Shown piece by piece: positions 40,085-49,343 of a DNA stretch of 64,000 nt. Source of the stretch: Pirellulaceae bacterium (lineage in GTDB: Bacteria; Planctomycetota; Planctomycetia; Pirellulales; Pirellulaceae). Position numbers and translations under genes: made by a program. The stretch covers positions 124,001 through 188,000 of the forward strand of contig JAGYIQ010000004.1 of the NCBI GenBank assembly GCA_018402565.1. The letters run 5' to 3'. The notes beneath the pieces were generated by a model, which saw only the letters and a list, made by a program, of their open reading frames with translations, was not told the DNA's origin and did not search any database. Within the stretch, counting starts at the first letter, position 1; each line of letters begins with the position of its first letter.

Positions 40085-40987
40085 ATGAACAACACAAATT
40101 CAAATTCAAACTCGGACTCAAACTCGCCGACTCCCCCACCCGATCCGCTCGACGGCTTGTTGGCGGACTGGAACGCACGAGTCGATTGCCCTCCCGACCA
40201 AGTCGCGCGGATGTGGGCGCGCGTTTCCGCAGCACTGCAGGCAGACCCCCACGAGGTTCGAGCCACCGAACTGCTGGGCCAAGTGAACGGCTTCACGGAA
40301 CATCCGTTGGCGGTGAACGAGGAGCCCCAGTCGGTCGACCCATCGCCGCGGCGATTGTGGCGTGGCCCCCTGCTGAGCGGCCTCCTAGCGGTGGTTGCCG
40401 CGGGCATCGCATTGGCTATCGGCCCGCTGTTCTTTAACGGCTCGGTTGTACCCAAGGCGGACGGACTGGCTGGTACGGTAACGGCCGAGGATCCCTTGCA
40501 GCAGTTTGCGTTTTCGGACGACGAATTGCATCACACACAAATCTTGGCTACTGAAATCCAACGTCTCTATTCCAAGCCCGTGGTGGCGAGGAAAACGGAA
40601 GCTGGCTGGGACATTGACGAGATCCAAACGACGGAGCTTGAAGTGACGGGCGAACGCCCGACCTTGGTCATCCGGTGCTTGGTTATGGAAGCGGCTGCCG
40701 CGGTGGATGGAGTGGCCCAACCTTGGCAAGTGGTGGCCCAAGAAGAGTTGATTACGAATGTCGAGTACCAACACTTTGCGGCCAAGGATCAACCGGGTGA
40801 CGTCGAGGCCTGGGTGCACTTGCTGCCGGACAACCGCTTATGGGCGGAGTGTCATGATGATGTGCGAGAAACCGCATTTGTGCTACAGCCGAACCAACCC
40901 AGCGTCTTATGGGAAGTGAAGTCCAACGGGTCCAGCAGTCGACGATTTGTCGTCGTCTTCGAATGCTTGGATCCCAACGATGCCTGA
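40085..40987 (+). CDS. one-helix membrane protein, probable anti-sigma factor of the preceding ECF sigma
   Basis: The protein has 300 residues. A low-complexity Asn/Ser N-terminus is followed by a helical cytosolic segment (PLDGLLADWNARVDCPPDQVARMWARVSAAL) of the size of a sigma-binding helix bundle. A TM helix (LLSGLLAVVAAGIALAIGPLFF, about 100-121) and a periplasmic domain of about 175 residues follow. No zinc HxxxCxxC motif is visible, so it is not a standard ZAS domain. It begins 14 bp after the sigma stop. The role is inferred from gene order and topology; the family is not recognised. Confidence 0.65.
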   Translation: MNNTNSNSNSDSNSPTPPPDPLDGLLADWNARVDCPPDQVARMWARVSAALQADPHEVRATELLGQVNGFTEHPLAVNEEPQSVDPSPRRLWRGPLLSGLLAVVAAGIALAIGPLFFNGSVVPKADGLAGTVTAEDPLQQFAFSDDELHHTQILATEIQRLYSKPVVARKTEAGWDIDEIQTTELEVTGERPTLVIRCLVMEAAAAVDGVAQPWQVVAQEELITNVEYQHFAAKDQPGDVEAWVHLLPDNRLWAECHDDVRETAFVLQPNQPSVLWEVKSNGSSSRRFVVVFECLDPNDA

Positions 40988-41093
40988 GCCCCCGAGGCAT
41001 GCGTTTGGGCGGATGGAGCGATCAGCGCCGCACACGACGAAATTCGTGACCGCCGCGAAACGGTCCAACGGATGGCACAACAGGGATACACCA

Positions 41094-42284
41094 ATGAACG
41101 TTAAGCGACAGAACCCACGGCAAATGAAAGGTGCAACGTACATGGCTACCAAAAACTATCTGCAGTTGATCGTCGGAGTGGCGATCTTGTGTGGCTGGGA
41201 GGGTGCGATTCGGGCCCAATCGGCTCCACCGCAGAACCCCTTTCCTATCTCCGCGGCCATCTTACCTTTCCAGGGACGATCGCCCATCTCCGGGACCTCG
41301 AACGAAAGTGGCACCGAGACGCGGACTCGAACGGAACAACTGTCGCGCACCGGCGCTCAGGAGACCGAGGATGCGAGGAAAGGATTTTTTGCTGATCGCG
41401 AGACTCGCTTGCGAGACCTGGCGAACGAAACGCGGACCACCACGGAGACAACCAGCCGGACGAACGACTCCAGTCGAGAAAAGGATATTGCCACGGCCGT
41501 TGTTGATCTACTGACCATCAAGCTGCTCATGTCAGACTACGTGATGCTGGTCGAGCGAGCGGAAATCGATCGTATTTTCGATGAACTAAAGCTGAGTCGA
41601 TCCGGCTTGGTGAACGCAGCCGAAGCGAATCAACTCGGTCGATTCTCGGGAGCCCGCTTGCTGGTGACCGGATCGGTGGTACGCATCGACAACGACCTGT
41701 ACTTGATCGCCAAGGTTATGGGTTCCGAAACCAGTCGCTTGGCGGGCGCTTCGGTCAAGGGACCGGCCAACGGGGATCTGGGCCAGTTGGTCGATAAGCT
41801 GGCCGCAGAACTGGAACTGGTCTTCAAAAATAAAGGGCTCTCTCTACTACCTCGCGTCGAGCAAGAGTCCGATTGGGTGTCCCGCATCCGCCAAGGATTC
41901 GCTGGTCAGGCACTGCCGACGGTGACCGTGCAGCTGCAGTCCAAGCGAGGCGATATCGATACCGCGGCCGTGACGGAACTGGAACGACTCCTGCGGGCAC
42001 TCGGCTTTGAGGTACTCGCAGGGGATCACCCCAATGCCGGCCGAGCGGAACTGGCGGTGGTTGGTGAGGCCCAATCCGAATTCGCCTATCGCCGCGACGA
42101 CTGGGTCGCCACCCGTTGCCGTATCGACTTGCAGATCCGCTCACAGAACACTGGCACCGTCTTGGCGTCGGACTCGGAGGCTTGCACCGTCTTCGACATC
42201 GGCGAAACACTCAGTGGCAAACAAGGCCTGCAAGACGCTATGCGGCGGCTGGCCGAGCGAGTCGCGGCGAAAATGACCCAGTAA
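41094..42284 (+). CDS. secreted CsgG/FlgO-like protein
   Basis: The protein has 396 residues from the ATG at 41094 (AGGGA upstream); an ATG at 41142 would give a shorter signal. The signal peptide ends in CGWEGAIRAQ. After a Thr/Arg/Glu-rich low-complexity stretch (about 65-130), the domain AVVDLLTIKLLMSDYVMLVERAEIDRIFDELKLSRSGLVNAAEANQLGRFSGARLLVTGSVV is the CsgG/FlgO/LpoB-type core, which builds pores or partners at the outer membrane. No lipobox Cys is seen, unlike CsgG. It is third in the ECF sigma gene set and shares this domain type with the large minus-strand neighbour at 35432, which suggests related envelope roles. Confidence 0.78.
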   Translation: MNVKRQNPRQMKGATYMATKNYLQLIVGVAILCGWEGAIRAQSAPPQNPFPISAAILPFQGRSPISGTSNESGTETRTRTEQLSRTGAQETEDARKGFFADRETRLRDLANETRTTTETTSRTNDSSREKDIATAVVDLLTIKLLMSDYVMLVERAEIDRIFDELKLSRSGLVNAAEANQLGRFSGARLLVTGSVVRIDNDLYLIAKVMGSETSRLAGASVKGPANGDLGQLVDKLAAELELVFKNKGLSLLPRVEQESDWVSRIRQGFAGQALPTVTVQLQSKRGDIDTAAVTELERLLRALGFEVLAGDHPNAGRAELAVVGEAQSEFAYRRDDWVATRCRIDLQIRSQNTGTVLASDSEACTVFDIGETLSGKQGLQDAMRRLAERVAAKMTQ

Positions 42285-42322: not shown

Positions 42323-44125
42323 TTAGCGAACCACTAGTTCCGTCGAGTGTTCCTGGACTTGTCGCGGCGAGCAGATCTCCTCGTCGCAAACCTGATAGAT
42401 CAGCTTGACCGAGAGCGTGTGTGCACCCGGTGATGCGGACGGGGGTGATGCGGACGGAGACACACGCAACCGCTGCCGAAAGACCACTTGGTTCCTGTAA
42501 ACCGACGCGCCACCACTTGCCGGATCGGCCACCGCATCGTCGGCGATCCAATCGCCCGCCAATTCCACTCCGGCCGGTAGTTCCACTTCCAATTGTGTGG
42601 GTACGGCCACACCGCGGTGCGGTTGGCGACCGTAGATGTGCCAACCCCGAGCCACGTTCACTTGGACGACCAAGGAACACGTCTCTCCAGGCGATACCTG
42701 TGACGGCAACAGGCTGACCTGGACCGAAACCGGCTCTTGTTCGCTGGGTTCCCCAGGCGATAGAGCTGCGGACTTGCTCGCTCGGTCCTGCATCCGCAGC
42801 CCCTCGGTTGGGACCTGCTTCCGTTTGGCCAAGCGATCGATGTACCAACGAAATCCACCCGAATCCGAAAAAAACAGATAATCGCGATTCTCGCCGAGCC
42901 ACTGTCGCCACTCGGCAACCCACTGGTCGCTCGCTACCGTCACCTCGACCGCTGGGCCATCCGGAGCATAGCGTTTTAACAACGCCTTCGCCGTCGCATG
43001 ATCGGCACCGGACTGCTCCAACATCGACAACACCGACTCGAAGAACTCGATCTTTGCCGGCATCACCCCCAAGCGTTCCGCGTCCCGGTCGATGATTAAC
43101 TTCCCCGCATCGTCAATCGTGATGAAGGGCTCGGCCTTGACAAACCAGGCGGCCAGGTCGGCGTGACTAAGGCCTTTTGTGTCAGCGTACAACGACGGTG
43201 CCAAATACGCACTCAAGTAGCGATCCAAATCGCGACTGGGATCGGCCGCCAAACGACCGATCAGTTCGCGACCCAGGATTCGCTTCTTCGAGTAAAACAC
43301 ACTTGGGGTGTAAACGTTTGGACGGTCTTCGACAAATTGGGCGATGTAACAAATCGAATTTACTAACAAAGCGCGGCCATTTGCATTCAGTTGCGCGGGC
43401 GATTCTTCGAATCCAAAATGCATCAAATGGCCCTGACGCCAGACCGCTCCTGCTGCCGGCGTCTTGGCATTGACACCTCCCAGGATCGGCTCCAACTCTG
43501 GGACTTGATTGTGTTCCGTGACATAGGTACACCATCCTGGAGAAGCATTCGGTTGCGGCTCATCGATCAACGGCAAGACTTCGATTTCGGAGTCCTTGAT
43601 GACCGAACTCCAAGCGACGGGGACGGGAATGCGCTGAGTGGCTTTCAAATCGAGTGGGATTGGGGAGTTCAAAACGGCGTGGTCGCGTAACACGTACGCG
43701 AATGGATCCAAGCAGGTTCACCCCGCACCACCAATGGTCTCCCACGGCCCAGCCAGGATTTGTCCGGCGGAACCCAACAACACCGTCGGCGTGGACCACT
43801 GGGCCCGATCTCCTAAGGGTGACGGATAGTTGCGAGCGGCATCCCACTGGGCGCTCGGGTCATGGATTTCCATTTGGCTCCAATCGAGCAAGACGACATC
43901 GTAAGCTGCGGCCATTTCGGGCTTGAACAGCTCCCGTTTCATCGCAGACGATTGCACAAAGTTGGCCGCCAAAAATTCAGTAAAGGCCGACTCGCGAGCG
44001 TCATCATTGCGAGCCAAGTACAGGACTCGCAGCGGTTGTTTGGTCGGCTCGTCCACCGCCCAGGCACTCGTCGGTAAGCTGGTCATCAACCAGCCGAAAA
44101 GAAATCCAAAGAAAAGAACTCGCAT
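42323..44125 (-). CDS. secreted ThuA-like/DsbD-alpha protein with in-frame UGA: candidate selenoprotein
   Basis: Two open stretches, 44125-43721 and 43717-42323, are in the same frame and separated only by TGA at 43718-43720, giving 600 residues if decoded. The ATG at 44125 has GGAGG upstream, and a signal peptide follows (LFFGFLFGWLMTSLPTSAWA). Residues 30-280 resemble a ThuA/class-I-amidotransferase-like fold (LRVLYLAR, VVLLDWSQ, WRQGHLMHFGFE). Position 136, the UGA, sits in WETIGGAG-(UGA)-TCLDPF, just two residues before a Cys. The C-terminus (about 480-600) is a DsbD-alpha-like domain (GWHIYGRQP, YQVCDEEIC). The UGA replaces a Cys codon by one base if homologs carry Cys here (my expectation). 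A hairpin of SECIS type follows. The alternative is a pseudogene by nonsense mutation. The downstream part alone starts only with TTG at 43711 and has no signal peptide. Confidence 0.7.
43684..43720 (-). promoter_or_regulatory. candidate bacterial SECIS element following in-frame UGA
   Basis: On the minus strand, UGA (43720-43718) is followed by 17 nt, then CGCGTA (43700-43695), loop CGTGT, and TACGCG (43689-43684). The stem has six pairs, or seven with the flanking T-A. The loop has G among its first two bases, and 23 nt separate UGA from the apical loop. These values fall within the published bacterial SECIS consensus (loop 3-14 nt, G in loop position 1 or 2, UGA-loop spacing about 16-37 nt). 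Confidence 0.5.
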
Positions 44126-44191
44126 CGCCTCGCCTCCCATGGATAGGATTCGTTGACTCAAGTGAATAGTAAACATAAGCGTTCACGCCCC

Positions 44192-44232
44192 GCCTCGTGT
44201 CGTGTCGTGTCGTGTCGCCTCGTGTCGTGTCG
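44192..44232. repeat. CGTGT pentamer tandem repeat
   Basis: About seven near-perfect copies of CGTGT, interrupted by GCCT, lie in the 488-bp gap 44126-44613. The gap separates divergent genes and must hold the promoters for both. No other gene is supported there. Confidence 0.75.
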
Positions 44233-44613
44233 TGAAACAAGTGACTCGTAAACATCGACAACTACATGCTTCCCGAGCCGTTCGTGCGGGCACTTGGCGG
44301 CTCGGCCTCGACGCATTTCTAATCGATCACAAACGCAGAAGCAACCACCGGGCCAGGCCAATAAAATGCGGGAAACGCTGTCACGCATGCTCAAAGCAGT
44401 AACAGCTGGACGCTTTTTACGCTAGAAGCTGTCACCAACGGGTATCGCAACGCGACATTTCACGGAACCGCCGATTGCGTTGCGGGATTTGGCGTGCAAA
44501 TCGACTGGGTATCGGTTACATTAGTCGTATCGTTGTGTGTCCGCTGCGGGACACTCCCTGATCATTTGCCCGCGCTTCAAGCGCGTGGGCTCCAACCGCT
44601 GAGCGATAGACAG

Positions 44614-47600
44614 ATGCAGAACAGGCCACGAGAGACCAGCTTGCCACGAGGATGCGGGGACGGCGGCCTACCTAGAGCGGCGACGTTGGCGGGTGCTCGG
44701 TCTGCGTCTGGGCGGCTCCCGGCCGATCGAGCTAGATGGATAGGCACTGCCCTGGCCGGCACGGCCCGTGATCGCGATACGCGTTGGGTGTGCGGCTGGT
44801 TGCTGATTTTGGTGAGTGCTGCGTTTCATTGCCAGACCAGCTGCGACGCTGCCTGGTTTCCCCGGCAAGAGATCGACGGGGACTTGGAAACGCAACGCGA
44901 GCATTTCTTTGAATCGCGGATCCGCCCTGTCCTGGTCCAGCATTGCCTCGAATGCCATGGCGACTCGACCGTCCTTCAAGGCGGCCTGAGCTTGGAGACT
45001 CGCGACGCGTGGCTCCGCGGCGGCGACTCTGGGCCGGCCATCGTCCCGGGAGCTCCTGAAGAGAGCCTGCTGTGGCAAGCCGTCAGTTACCGCGACTCGC
45101 ACCTGGAGATGCCGCCCGATGGCCAACTCCCGGCAAATGTGCTGGCCGACCTCCAACGCTGGATCGCGGACGGGGCCTACGATCCTCGCACTGCCCAAAG
45201 CAACACGGCTGACGCTCCGTTAGGCAAACCAGACCAGTCACCGATCCGAGCGCTGGCCGTGGCCGATGCCCAGCAACACTGGGCGTACCGACCGCTAACC
45301 CCCGTCGATGTTTCGCCCGCACGGCACCAAGGCCAGCACCCGATCGACTGGCTGCTGCATGCCGCTCAAGTTCGCGCCGGCATCACTCCCGTCGAGGTCG
45401 CCGATGCCCGTCAACGGTGGCGCCGCTTGCACTTGGACTTGGCGGGACGGCTTCCCACTTACGAAGCTCTACAGAACCTGCCATCGGATCCCACACAGTT
45501 CGCCGACGCTTATACAACTGAGGTGGACCGCTTGTTGGCGGAAGTCGCTTACGGCGAGGTCCTGGCGCGGCTGTGGATGGATGTCGTCCGCTACGCCGAC
45601 TCGATCACGCTCCGCGGCTTTGTGCTCCCCCAGGCCTGGCGATATCGTGACTACTTAATTGATTCATTCCATGCAGATCGTCCATTCTCACAAATGATTG
45701 TCGAGCAACTCGCGGGCGATCTACTCCCCCCACCGACCGCCGAGGACTCGGCTCGCGACTCTGACGCAGCCCTCAAGCAACATCACAACCAATTGGTGGC
45801 CACAACGTTCTTGACCCTGGGCAACACCAATCTTGAAACCCAAGACAAACGCCTACTGGAACTGGATTACATCGATGAACAATTGGATGTGATTGGCCAG
45901 GCGTTCTTGGGTCAAACCATTTCCTGCGCTCGCTGCCACGATCACAAGTTCGACCCGATTCCGACTCGTGATTATTACGCCCTGGCCGGGATCCTCGATG
46001 GTGCAATTGGGTTGAAGCACGACAACGTTTCGACATGGGTCGAACTGCCCTTGCCGCTCGGCGCCGCCCAGGAGGCCGAGCGACAACAGCTGCAGCGTCA
46101 GTTGACGGAATCCGCCGAGACCCTGCGTGGCCTCCGCGCTGCCCTGCCCGCCAAGCTAGCCGAGCGACGCGGGATCCCCGTCGCAGAACTCGACGGTGTC
46201 GTGGTCGACGATCAAGACGCTGAATTCGTCGGCGATTGGCTCGAGTCGCAACACACCGCGCCGTACGTCGGCACAGGCTATCGCCATGATCGGAATCAAC
46301 AGCGGGGAGAAAAGTCTGCCACCTTCCAACCCGCCGGCCTGGCCCCCGGTGAATACGAAGTTCGCTTGTCTTACTCGGCCGGAGAAAATCGTGCCACCAC
46401 GACCTTGGTGGACGTGTTTAGCGCTGCGGGACAAACCTCCGTCCTGGTCAACCAACGTCAGCCGCCTCCCGAAGACGGCTTGTGGTACAGCTTGGGTACC
46501 TTCCGCTTCGAGACCGATGGCCAAGCCTACGTAATGATCTCCAATCAGGGTGCCGATGGGCATGTGATGGCCGATGCCGTCCAATTCCTGCCCGTTCCCA
46601 TCGCGAACCGAGCATCCGGCGCCGCCTCCGACTCGGGGGCGACGGAGGCTGTCACCACGAGCGAACAGGATCGGCGACAAGCCTTGGAAAGCCAGATCCA
46701 AGAACTGGAATCGCAACGTCGCCACTGGCAACAGCAGCTGGACCAGCAACCCAAGTACATGACGGTCGTGTCGAAGCCCACCCAGGCCGACCTGCCGATT
46801 CTGATTCGCGGCAACCACCAAATGCCATCCTCCATCGCACCCCGTGGCTTTCTCTCAGCCGTCTCGCTTCCTTCCGTTTCCTCGATTCCGGCTGGGGCTG
46901 ACGGTCGCTTGGCTCTGGCTCGGTGGATTGCCGCAGAGGAGAATCCGCTGACGGCCCGCGTCTACGTGAACCGACTCTGGGCCTGGCTCATGGGTGCTGG
47001 GCTGGTGACCACACCCAACGAGTTTGGAACCATGGGAGCGATGCCGACGCACCCCGAGCTGCTGGATTGGTTAGCCGCCGAGTTCCACCGCAGCGGGGGC
47101 TCGACAAAGCACATCGTTCGATTGATCGTCACGTCGGCCGCGTACCAACGCCGAGTGGAGTCAACGCCCCAACTGGCAACCATGGACCCCGACAATCGAC
47201 TGTACGCCCGCGGGCATCGACGGCGTCTTTCGGCAGAGGCGCTCCGCGATCAGATGTTGCGGATCAGTGGCGAGTTGGATGAAACGGTGGGGGGCTCGAC
47301 CATCGCCGCCAACACGGTCACCGATTACCAATACGAACATCGGTCCCTCCGCCAGAGCATTTATCAGCCCGTATTCCGCAATGCCTTGCCCGACCTGTTT
47401 GCCGAGTTCGACTTTGCCGACCCCAGTCGCTCGGTCGGGCGGCGGTCCCGCAGCACGGTGTCCACTCAGGCCCTGGCCCTCTGGAATTCGCCCTGGGTTA
47501 CCGCACGAGCCAACGCGACCGCTGCACGTGTCCGACAAATGGCACTAGCCAACACGACCGCTAACCAGGACGCCATGCTTGAAGTCGTTCGCCTGACTTA

Positions 47601-47826
47601 CCAACATTGCCTGCAGCGAGATCCTACGGGCACCGAGTTAACTCGCTGCCTTGCCTTTCTGTCGGAGGTAGCCGAGCCGAACGATCTGCCCGGTCGTTCC
47701 AGCGACGCGGTTGAACCGGCCGATTCCGCCTACGATCCACTGGTGGATTTGGTGCAGGCCCTCTTCGCCTCCCTGGAGTTCCGCTACTTGGACTTACCAC
47801 CACATATATCGGAGAGCCGCGAATGA
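44614..47826 (+). CDS. PSCyt1/DUF1549/DUF1553 planctomycete cytochrome protein
   Basis: From the ATG at 44614 the protein has 1070 residues. A GTG at 44494 is possible, and a later internal start just before WVCGWLLILVSAAF would give a more normal signal peptide, so the start is uncertain. The PSCyt1 heme-like motif VLVQHCLECHG is followed by DUF1549 (RLHLDLAGRLPTYEAL, DVVRYADS, CARCHDHKFDPIPTRDYYAL). A carbohydrate-binding-like insert (about 560-660) and DUF1553 (RGNHQMP, VNRLWAWLMGAGLV, IVTSAAYQR, RRLSAEALRDQML) come next. These proteins are a planctomycete hallmark, are exported, and are thought to act in polysaccharide breakdown or electron transfer, but no activity is proven. The stop overlaps the next start by four bases. 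Confidence 0.92.
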   Translation: MQNRPRETSLPRGCGDGGLPRAATLAGARSASGRLPADRARWIGTALAGTARDRDTRWVCGWLLILVSAAFHCQTSCDAAWFPRQEIDGDLETQREHFFESRIRPVLVQHCLECHGDSTVLQGGLSLETRDAWLRGGDSGPAIVPGAPEESLLWQAVSYRDSHLEMPPDGQLPANVLADLQRWIADGAYDPRTAQSNTADAPLGKPDQSPIRALAVADAQQHWAYRPLTPVDVSPARHQGQHPIDWLLHAAQVRAGITPVEVADARQRWRRLHLDLAGRLPTYEALQNLPSDPTQFADAYTTEVDRLLAEVAYGEVLARLWMDVVRYADSITLRGFVLPQAWRYRDYLIDSFHADRPFSQMIVEQLAGDLLPPPTAEDSARDSDAALKQHHNQLVATTFLTLGNTNLETQDKRLLELDYIDEQLDVIGQAFLGQTISCARCHDHKFDPIPTRDYYALAGILDGAIGLKHDNVSTWVELPLPLGAAQEAERQQLQRQLTESAETLRGLRAALPAKLAERRGIPVAELDGVVVDDQDAEFVGDWLESQHTAPYVGTGYRHDRNQQRGEKSATFQPAGLAPGEYEVRLSYSAGENRATTTLVDVFSAAGQTSVLVNQRQPPPEDGLWYSLGTFRFETDGQAYVMISNQGADGHVMADAVQFLPVPIANRASGAASDSGATEAVTTSEQDRRQALESQIQELESQRRHWQQQLDQQPKYMTVVSKPTQADLPILIRGNHQMPSSIAPRGFLSAVSLPSVSSIPAGADGRLALARWIAAEENPLTARVYVNRLWAWLMGAGLVTTPNEFGTMGAMPTHPELLDWLAAEFHRSGGSTKHIVRLIVTSAAYQRRVESTPQLATMDPDNRLYARGHRRRLSAEALRDQMLRISGELDETVGGSTIAANTVTDYQYEHRSLRQSIYQPVFRNALPDLFAEFDFADPSRSVGRRSRSTVSTQALALWNSPWVTARANATAARVRQMALANTTANQDAMLEVVRLTYQHCLQRDPTGTELTRCLAFLSEVAEPNDLPGRSSDAVEPADSAYDPLVDLVQALFASLEFRYLDLPPHISESRE

Positions 47827-49343
47827 ATTCACCCAAGATCACTGCCGTTGATCCGCTGGGGCCGGCCACCGCTGACCGTCGCCACTGGCTGAGCCAAATT
47901 GGCTGCGGCTTTGCGTCGTTGGCAACCCAATGCCTATTGGCCTCGTCGGCGACGGCACAGCATGAGTCCTCGTCGGTTGCCGCAGCCAACCGATCGGCAC
48001 CCGAAAATGGCTTGGACCGAACCAGCGAGTTTGCCTCCAGAACGCATCATCGTCCTGCGGCAAAACGCATTATTTTCCTATTTATGCAAGGAGGCGTCAG
48101 CCAGGTCGATACCTTTGACTACAAGCCATTGATCAACCAACGCGCCGGCGAGGTGCTCACGTTCAACGACGCTAGGCAGCTGGCCAAGATCGGACAAGCC
48201 ACGCCGCAACGCCTGTTGCCGACGCCCTGGAACTTCCAGCAGCATGGGCAGACGGGACGCTGGGTGTCGGAGCTATTCCCCCACCAAGCCACGCAAGTCG
48301 ATCGACTCTGTTTTTTGCATGCCGTTCACACCGAGGGCGTTGCCCACGGACCCGCGACCTTGTTTCTCCACTGCGGAGCCACTCAGTTTGTGCGGCCGTC
48401 TTTTGGTTCCTGGGTGCTGTACGGCTTGGGCCCGGACACCGAAAATTTACCAGGGTTTGTGTCCATTGCCCCGTCGCTGGGCAACGGCGGGCCGCGAAAT
48501 TTTGGCTCCGCTTTTCTACCGGCGCACTTGCAGGGTACGCCGTTGGGGTTAGCCGGCAGCGATCAGCTACAGTTAGCGAACCTACAGAGTCCCCGGACCA
48601 ATCGCCAAGAGCAAACTCGCCAAGCACTGCTGCGGGATTTAAACGCAGCCCAGTGGCAACCGTCCCGAGAAGCGGACGCCCTCACAGACGAGTTGGCTGC
48701 CGCGACAAAGTCACTCGAATTGGCTTGGAACATGCAAACCGTCGCTCCTGAGATCTTGGATTTCAGCAACGAGACCGCTGCCACCTTGCAGGATTATGGG
48801 ATCGATCAACCAGCCACGCGTTCTTATGGACGCCGCTGTTTGTTGGCCAGACGACTGTGCGAAGCGGGTGTCCGATTCATTCAAGTCAACTATGGCGACA
48901 ATTCGGCCAATCCCGCCTGGGACCAGCATTCGAATCTACCCAAACATGCCGATCATGCCCTGGCCGTCGATCGGCCCGTCGCCGCCCTATTGCAGGACCT
49001 AGCACAACGAGGCTTATTGGAAGACACCATCGTGTGGTGGGGGAGTGAATTCGGCCGCACTCCGTATTCGGAAAATAACGGCACAGGTCGCGACCACAAC
49101 CCCAACGGTTTCACCATGTGGTTGGCCGGCGGTGGTTTCCGACCCGGATTCGCCTTTGGGCAAACCGATGAGTTTGGTTTCCGCGGGATTGAAGGTCGGG
49201 TCCATTTGCATGACTTGCACGCCACCCTGCTGCATCAATTGGGCTTGGATCATACTCGGCTGACCTACAAACACGCGGGCCGTGATTTTCGCCTGACCGA
49301 TGTGCATGGCCGGATCATCAACAACGTCTTGACCAACGGATAA
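47823..49343 (+). CDS. DUF1501 family secreted protein (sulfatase-like fold)
   Basis: The protein has 506 residues. The N-terminal DRRHWLSQIGCGFASLATQCLLASSATA has the double character of a Tat-like export signal, with RRHWL in place of RRxFL. The body has the DUF1501 signatures KRIIFLFMQGGVSQVDTFDYKP, AVHTEGVAHGPATLFLHCG, RFIQVNYGDNSANPAWDQHSN and IVWWGSEFGRTP. DUF1501 is related to the alkaline phosphatase/sulfatase superfamily and nearly always pairs with a DUF1549/1553 gene. Here the ATGA overlap at 47823-47826 shows translational coupling. The substrate is unknown. Confidence 0.93.
   Translation: MNSPKITAVDPLGPATADRRHWLSQIGCGFASLATQCLLASSATAQHESSSVAAANRSAPENGLDRTSEFASRTHHRPAAKRIIFLFMQGGVSQVDTFDYKPLINQRAGEVLTFNDARQLAKIGQATPQRLLPTPWNFQQHGQTGRWVSELFPHQATQVDRLCFLHAVHTEGVAHGPATLFLHCGATQFVRPSFGSWVLYGLGPDTENLPGFVSIAPSLGNGGPRNFGSAFLPAHLQGTPLGLAGSDQLQLANLQSPRTNRQEQTRQALLRDLNAAQWQPSREADALTDELAAATKSLELAWNMQTVAPEILDFSNETAATLQDYGIDQPATRSYGRRCLLARRLCEAGVRFIQVNYGDNSANPAWDQHSNLPKHADHALAVDRPVAALLQDLAQRGLLEDTIVWWGSEFGRTPYSENNGTGRDHNPNGFTMWLAGGGFRPGFAFGQTDEFGFRGIEGRVHLHDLHATLLHQLGLDHTRLTYKHAGRDFRLTDVHGRIINNVLTNG

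Follow-up and report, generated by a model that had tools for sequence, protein, structure and literature searches.

A UGA-containing gene family of Planctomycetota, with cysteine forms in Bacteroidota, predicted to encode an apparently uncatalogued selenoprotein with a ThuA-like fold and a DsbD-alpha partner

The whole stretch of DNA analyzed here, 64,000 nucleotides from a Pirellulaceae bacterium (hereafter the window), carries on its minus strand a gene in which an in-frame UGA, the codon for residue 136, almost certainly encodes selenocysteine (Sec), judging from comparative sequence evidence. This reading, which a first-pass annotation of the window had proposed, follows from the finding of only UGA or Cys at the aligned codon of the homologs, from a SECIS hairpin past the UGA, from covariation in its stem, from the co-occurrence of the UGA forms with tRNA-Sec, and from the presence of the Sec machinery genes. 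The encoded protein, which from its sequence is probably exported, would carry a Sec-x-Cys (UxC) pair. The gene is composed of the following features:

42323..44125, minus strand: whole selenoprotein gene, stop codon included, 600 residues with Sec136 (from the translation)
44057..44125, minus strand: likely signal peptide MRVLFFGFLFGWLMTSLPTSAWA, judged by eye from the sequence
43325..44038, minus strand: N-terminal ThuA/class-I-glutamine-amidotransferase-like domain, residues ~30-267, predicted from fold matches, which bears the UxC motif
43718..43720, minus strand: UGA codon, read as selenocysteine residue 136 (UGA or Cys is aligned in every full-length homolog read)
43712..43714, minus strand: Cys138, the partner in the Sec-x-Cys pair, invariant in alignments A1, A2, A5, and A6
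43683..43701, minus strand: predicted bacterial SECIS hairpin with a 7 bp stem and loop CGTGT, the loop 23 nt past the UGA
42815..43300, minus strand: mostly helical region, residues ~276-437, from the secondary structure of the model and conserved columns
42347..42700, minus strand: DsbD-alpha (DsbD_N) domain, residues 476-593 (PF11412, 43.3 bits; Z 11.0 to 1jzd)
42371..42388, minus strand: Cys pair C580-x4-C585 of the DsbD-alpha domain, located in the sequence inside the DsbD_N match

Translated from 44125 down to 42323, with TGA taken as Sec, the gene holds a single internal TGA, and residue 136 stands in the context GGAG-U-T-C-L-D (longer motif GGAGUTCLDPFAY). The first-pass annotation had described one TGA splitting an otherwise continuous frame; its positions were correct, and the strand, which it had left unstated, is minus. 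The listing of open reading frames breaks the genes of this family at the UGA, which makes it likely that each is annotated in two pieces. The homolog L018 aligns with the window protein on both sides of the UGA (49% identity, query residues 28-450). Further along the window protein, the final stretch of the helical region reads W-x2-W ... LFFSD-x-GGFRWYID.

Using the window protein as the query, matches were found in 70 of the 199 genomes of its taxonomic family, mostly via DsbD_N, and a first scan of contigs with the same query returned no relative. Of 241 genomes searched with a profile of the family core, 11 held full-length homologs; the aligned codon is UGA in four of these and Cys in seven. 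Among 392 genomes of the phylum, the core profile matched 58, and the full-length homologs there amount to 19 rows in 16 genomes, 18 of which rows have an internal TGA, the one without being that of genome G610. The remaining phylum matches do not span the full length, and the majority are short segments from the C-terminal half. A stretch of ~55 residues surrounding an invariant Arg-Tyr (core profile positions ~315-372, ~42890-43090 of the window) gave weak matches (E ~1e-3 to 1e-8) in most of 42 other phylum genomes. Finally, a contig scan with a motif pattern yielded 39 confirmed loci, of which 10 carry UGA and 29 carry Cys, a ratio that is not a frequency since the pattern required Cys codons; 28 of the 29 Cys loci belong to Bacteroidota, where the Cys forms include those of Flavobacterium, Pedobacter, Sphingobacterium, and Chitinophaga.

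The aligned codon is UGA in 22 distinct family genes, that of the window included, and Cys in 37 genes (28 from Bacteroidota and 9 from Planctomycetota), and no residue other than Sec or Cys was found at position 136 among the full-length members read. Twenty of the UGA genes are assigned to Planctomycetota on the strength of kinship or of the contig title, the UGA forms spanning 10 families of this phylum, and two (L120 and L121) lie on contigs labelled only 'bacterium'. The motif varies around this position, reading KLDWLUMCLDSYAHG in other homologs and KLDWLCLCLDADAHH in Bacteroidota. On a tree of 46 rows built with the motif letter masked, the distribution of Sec and Cys requires six changes, at least three of them forced by well-supported branches. 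A decoding of UGA as Trp was rejected, as UGA aligns with Cys and not with Trp, and TGA is the terminal stop in L074 and L077. The distant relatives L083 (genome G497) and L084 (genome G394) have no UxC and align to the family only after the motif; the fold can thus exist without the motif, and these two proteins may represent its use without a redox pair.

As L118 is the same as L072 over the 150 bases around the motif, the 23 UGA rows represent 22 distinct genes, and L118 was left out of the count of SECIS constraints. Over the same 150 bases, L117, L148, L150, L151, and L152 equal L073, L075, L076, L074, and L082, respectively, and these five had been excluded from the UGA set beforehand. 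The context filter removed L154 (Cys, short frame), leaving 36 of the 37 Cys genes in the statistics. Further full-length paralogs (L168, L169, and L170) have both the UGA and the hairpin, and the partial paralogs L085 and L067 have UGA at the aligned codon, L067 with a second TGA nearby; all of these paralogs were kept outside the statistics.

The genome from which the window derives (7.18 Mb in 223 contigs, 93.5% complete) encodes the Sec machinery that the first-pass annotation had pointed to as the genes to look for: a tRNA-Sec (70.6 bits, with ARAGORN in agreement, tca anticodon), SelA (553.7 bits), SelB (an open reading frame of 729 residues), and SelD (187.2 bits), the frame of the latter appearing by eye to place a dehydrogenase-like part ahead of a Cys-type SelD. 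More generally, tRNA-Sec was found in all 18 checked genomes with UGA forms (67-77 bits, SeC by ARAGORN) and in one of the eight checked genomes with Cys forms, G610, a comparison that covers the hosts of eight of the 37 Cys genes. The same annotation had looked to homologs with Cys at position 136 in species lacking Sec, and homologs do carry it, seven of them in genomes of the window's taxonomic family whose best tRNA-Sec match is a tRNA-Ser of 43-49 bits. The association between tRNA-Sec and the UGA form gives p 1.2e-5 by Fisher's exact test over 26 genomes and p 0.003 within the family of the window, both values serving only as a guide because related genomes are not independent. With a base rate of tRNA-Sec of 228 in 392 genomes of the phylum, its presence in 15 of the 15 UGA genomes there gives p 2.4e-4, also a guide only. 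Two genomes of the same genus as the window, G051 and G118, have a tRNA-Sec (70.1 bits) and no homolog of the selenoprotein gene, and hence probably use Sec in other proteins.

The bacterial SECIS model, as outlined in PMC13188914, has a loop of 3-9 nt, an upper stem of 4-16 bp, a G in the first two loop positions, a spacing of 16-37 nt, and a minimum free energy of -7.5 or lower. The hairpin of the window gene, TCGCGTA-CGTGT-TACGCGA, pairs 43701-43695 with 43689-43683; with its 5-nt loop, G at loop position 2, and -8.8 kcal/mol, it agrees with every published constraint. Its geometry (7 bp, loop CGTGT, G at loop position 2, 23 nt from the UGA to the loop) is that described in the first-pass annotation. 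In a lenient approximation of the published model, which asks for at least four pairs in all and tries many sub-windows, the SECIS constraints were passed by 22 of 22 UGA genes and by 2 of 36 Cys genes. L077 is a weak case, as its expected hairpin has -2.4 kcal/mol and it passes only via another hairpin, and the pairings of L029, L080, and L081 are slightly shifted.

The stem (nt +17 to +35) showed 134 of 161 pairs in the 23 UGA rows (22 distinct), against a mean of 102.8 (sd 4.3, maximum 118 in 5000 draws) when synonymous codons were resampled from each gene's own usage, while no excess was seen in the 36 Cys genes (97 of 252 pairs, null mean 95.8). For the window gene alone, the pairing excess does not reach significance (7 of 7 pairs form, as also happens in 15% of the draws) and the folding-energy p is 0.053. 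The mean folding energy is -10.5 kcal/mol in the UGA genes versus -2.9 kcal/mol in the Cys genes (Mann-Whitney p 5e-10), and the z-scores of the two sets against the null also differ (p 0.0017); single-gene energies reached p <0.05 in 9 of 23 UGA rows, but also in 6 of 36 Cys genes. In alignment A4 (22 rows, 21 distinct), the covariation score of the stem is 0.368, where structures slid to other positions score at most 0.173 and none of 500 shuffles scored as high, and 24 cells are altered on both sides of the stem, compared to a shuffled mean of 8.2. Two other measures on this alignment did not stand out from the shuffles: the number of pairs with a double change (4, shuffled mean 3.4, 211 of 500 shuffles as high) and the number of pair types (8, shuffled mean 8.2, 377 of 500 as high). 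In all 23 UGA rows (22 distinct), the codon that opens at loop position 2 has G as its first base and encodes Gly, Val, or Asp; 6 of the 36 Cys genes share this first base. Its constancy in the UGA rows suggests an influence of the RNA signal on the protein sequence.

The first-pass annotation had also called the protein ThuA-like, which the fold comparison supports and the sequence comparison does not. Pfam found DsbD_N alone on the whole window protein, and no Pfam ThuA model matched this protein at E 1 or the 26 core members at E 0.1, so that we reject ThuA membership by sequence; searches of the core in Pfam, NCBIfam, PADLOC, and PDB sequences gave nothing useful, and a plain Foldseek search, too, found no match at E 0.001. 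For the window protein, the model is of moderate quality (pLDDT 73.5, pTM 0.47, with the UxC loop, residues 132-146, at pLDDT <50), and its N-terminal domain reaches Z 10.8 to the ThuA-like structure 1t0b. The model of a Flavobacterium ortholog is good (pLDDT 90.8, pTM 0.86), and its N-terminal domain matches 1t0b with Z 12.8 (rmsd 3.4, 197 aligned), tied with 4jqs (12.3), 2gk3 (12.2), and 4pxy (12.0); apart from 2gk3, these top matches are ThuA-like. The next matches, at Z ~10-11, are amidotransferases, including GMP synthase and anthranilate synthase, together with other enzymes and proteins. These models support a ThuA/amidotransferase-like fold for the family core. Though 1t0b, 4jqs, and 4pxy are among the closest solved folds to the N-terminal domain (Z 12.0-12.8), the identity is 11-12%, no Pfam ThuA model matches, and these ThuA-like proteins are not known as redox proteins.

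The C-terminal domain had been described as DsbD-alpha-like with a Cys pair of its own, and this was borne out: residues 476-593 match DsbD_N with 43.3 bits (cut-off 25) and include Cys 580 and 585, and the model of the C-terminus gives Z 11.0 to 1jzd, the DsbC-DsbDalpha complex. The domain thus resembles the DsbD-alpha of DsbD (1jpe, 1jzd) by Pfam and by fold and keeps the Cys pair, but in the window protein it follows the Sec domain as a fusion and lacks the membrane part of DsbD. For that membrane part, the window genome has one DsbD_TM match (81.5 bits).

A DsbD_N match also comes after the core in L117-L121; in L153, it precedes the core in one frame (26.0 bits, cut-off 25), and in some homologs, such as L052, DsbD_N is a separate upstream gene. 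In Bacteroidota, the Cys form has a DsbD_N sequence next to it at 28 of 28 loci, and a DsbD match of >1 kb is present at 7 of them. Within flanks of up to 4 kb, the same 28 loci contain a TlpA-like thioredoxin (23), SusD (19), SusC (13), an M16 peptidase (6), and an S9 peptidase (1). Searches with Flavobacterium queries found no DsbD_N match around 9 of 18 Planctomycetota (or unlabelled) loci, some of them on short pieces (L148, L150, L151, L152, L155, L049, L051, L054, and L055). The fusion of DsbD_N in both orders and its occurrence in adjacent genes point to an electron-transfer partnership with the core, and this tight link makes the function directly testable. A recurrent cluster, for which we came across no name, was also observed in the Bacteroidota loci L122, L123, L128, L129, L131, L143, and L146, with varying subsets of SusC/SusD, TlpA-like thioredoxins, the C-x-C protein of this family, DsbD_N, full DsbD, and an M16 peptidase.

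We regard the selenoprotein as a probable exported, DsbD-fed periplasmic oxidoreductase, in which the Sec-x-Cys pair would act on a substrate, and we infer both its reaction and its substrate. SelB, charged tRNA-Sec, and the hairpin past the UGA would insert Sec136 during translation, a step for which the comparative evidence is strong. The Sec136-x-Cys138 pair in the ThuA/amidotransferase-like domain would then cycle between the selenol/thiol and the selenylsulfide. Electrons would enter the periplasm via a membrane relay of the DsbD/CcdA type and pass through the DsbD-alpha domain to the Sec-x-Cys pair, which would reduce a periplasmic substrate. Our guess for this substrate is disulfide-bonded imported peptides or proteins, favored by the SusD, TlpA, and peptidase neighbors in Bacteroidota. 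A broader proposal, which we put forward tentatively and would not yet bet on, is that the family constitutes a new periplasmic reductase system of two phyla, made of a ThuA-like domain with Sec/Cys-x-Cys and its own DsbD-alpha electron donor. The two would be coupled through fusion, in one order or the other, or through adjacent genes, the substrate would be imported disulfide-bonded peptides or another oxidized substrate, and many Planctomycetota would use the selenium form and Bacteroidota the sulfur form.

The protein could also be a selenoprotein that uses its Sec-x-Cys pair to bind a soft metal or metalloid, the DsbD-alpha partner only keeping the pair reduced. A His that follows the C-x-C is invariant in alignments A5 and A6, and together they could form a metal site; the opposite strand carries efflux genes near the Cys forms L135 (a CusB/HlyD-type protein and an RND protein) and L155 (a P-type ATPase), and the SusC/SusD neighbors point to the uptake of something. 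We nevertheless consider metal binding unlikely, as the efflux genes were noticed at two of the loci whose neighbors were inspected, whereas, of the 28 Bacteroidota loci, all have DsbD_N and 23 have TlpA. More improbable still is a hydrolase or transferase in which the Sec or Cys would be the nucleophile, like the Cys of class I glutamine amidotransferases. The fold matches would suit such an enzyme (Z 10.0-12.8 for ThuA-like folds, ~10-11 for the GMP synthase and anthranilate synthase amidotransferases), as would the invariant E, K, and R residues. However, after the central strand, at what we take to be the nucleophile elbow of class I glutamine amidotransferases, where a Cys would be expected, the window protein reads GSAG, with no Cys, and the UxC lies ~16 residues further on; moreover, the second Cys is invariant, and a single nucleophile would not need it.

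It is hardly credible that the UGA is a true stop, whether between two separate proteins, in a pseudogene, or through a sequencing error. Start-like codons do come after it, a TTG at 43711 in the window and, in L119, an ATG immediately behind the UGA. Against this stand the continuous Cys forms, the SECIS covariation, the co-occurrence with tRNA-Sec, and the recurrence of UGA at the aligned codon of 22 distinct genes, which no single sequencing error can produce and which led us to reject a sequencing error, a pseudogene, and a split gene alike. The oxidoreductase function, with UGA read as Sec, remains our preferred reading.

The first-pass annotation knew of no Sec protein with this architecture, and we found none either in Table 1 of PMC13188914, where 119 prokaryotic selenoprotein families or subfamilies were catalogued in 2026 and which lists no ThuA-like/DsbD-alpha UxC protein, or in NCBIfam 20.0, of which no selenoprotein model matches the window protein (E 1) or the 26 core members (E 0.1). 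In that table, UxC is the motif of a thioredoxin-like protein (PF13192) and of a Cu/Zn efflux transporter (NF033936), and a UxC site in a ThuA-like fold is not among the catalogued motifs as tabulated there. With the catalogued selenoproteins, as PMC13188914 presents them, the family shares a Sec-decoded UGA, a SECIS just downstream, Cys homologs, and a redox-type motif. Among the papers searched, none contained both selenoprotein and ThuA as words. Selenoproteins have been reported in two planctomycetes (PMC4807772), and the family, which appears uncatalogued, may have been listed earlier without a name in the supplement of that paper or in a groundwater survey cited in PMC13188914. The family would thus add to the known selenoproteins one with UGA forms in Planctomycetota and Cys forms in Bacteroidota.

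By name, two known selenoproteins come close to this architecture. The CTP synthase C-terminal-related glutamine amidotransferase selenoprotein (NF004836) has the amidotransferase class and Sec in common with it, but its motif is GxUxG instead of UxC, and the 26 core members have no match to NF004836 at E 0.1. The TsoB rhodanese/DsbD fusion-like selenoprotein (NF045694) likewise joins a Sec domain to a DsbD-related part, but it is of the rhodanese type with two Sec (UxxxxU), and the family described here has no NCBIfam match.

Around the gene in the window, a CsgG-domain protein (PF03783) adjoins it at 40947-42284 on the plus strand, and the divergent neighbors at 44494-49343, also on the plus strand, encode a PSCyt1-PSCyt2-Golvesin_C-PSD1 protein and a DUF1501 protein according to Pfam. 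Upstream of the start of the selenoprotein gene, at ~44190-44235, the DNA contains short tandem repeats of the GTGTC type.
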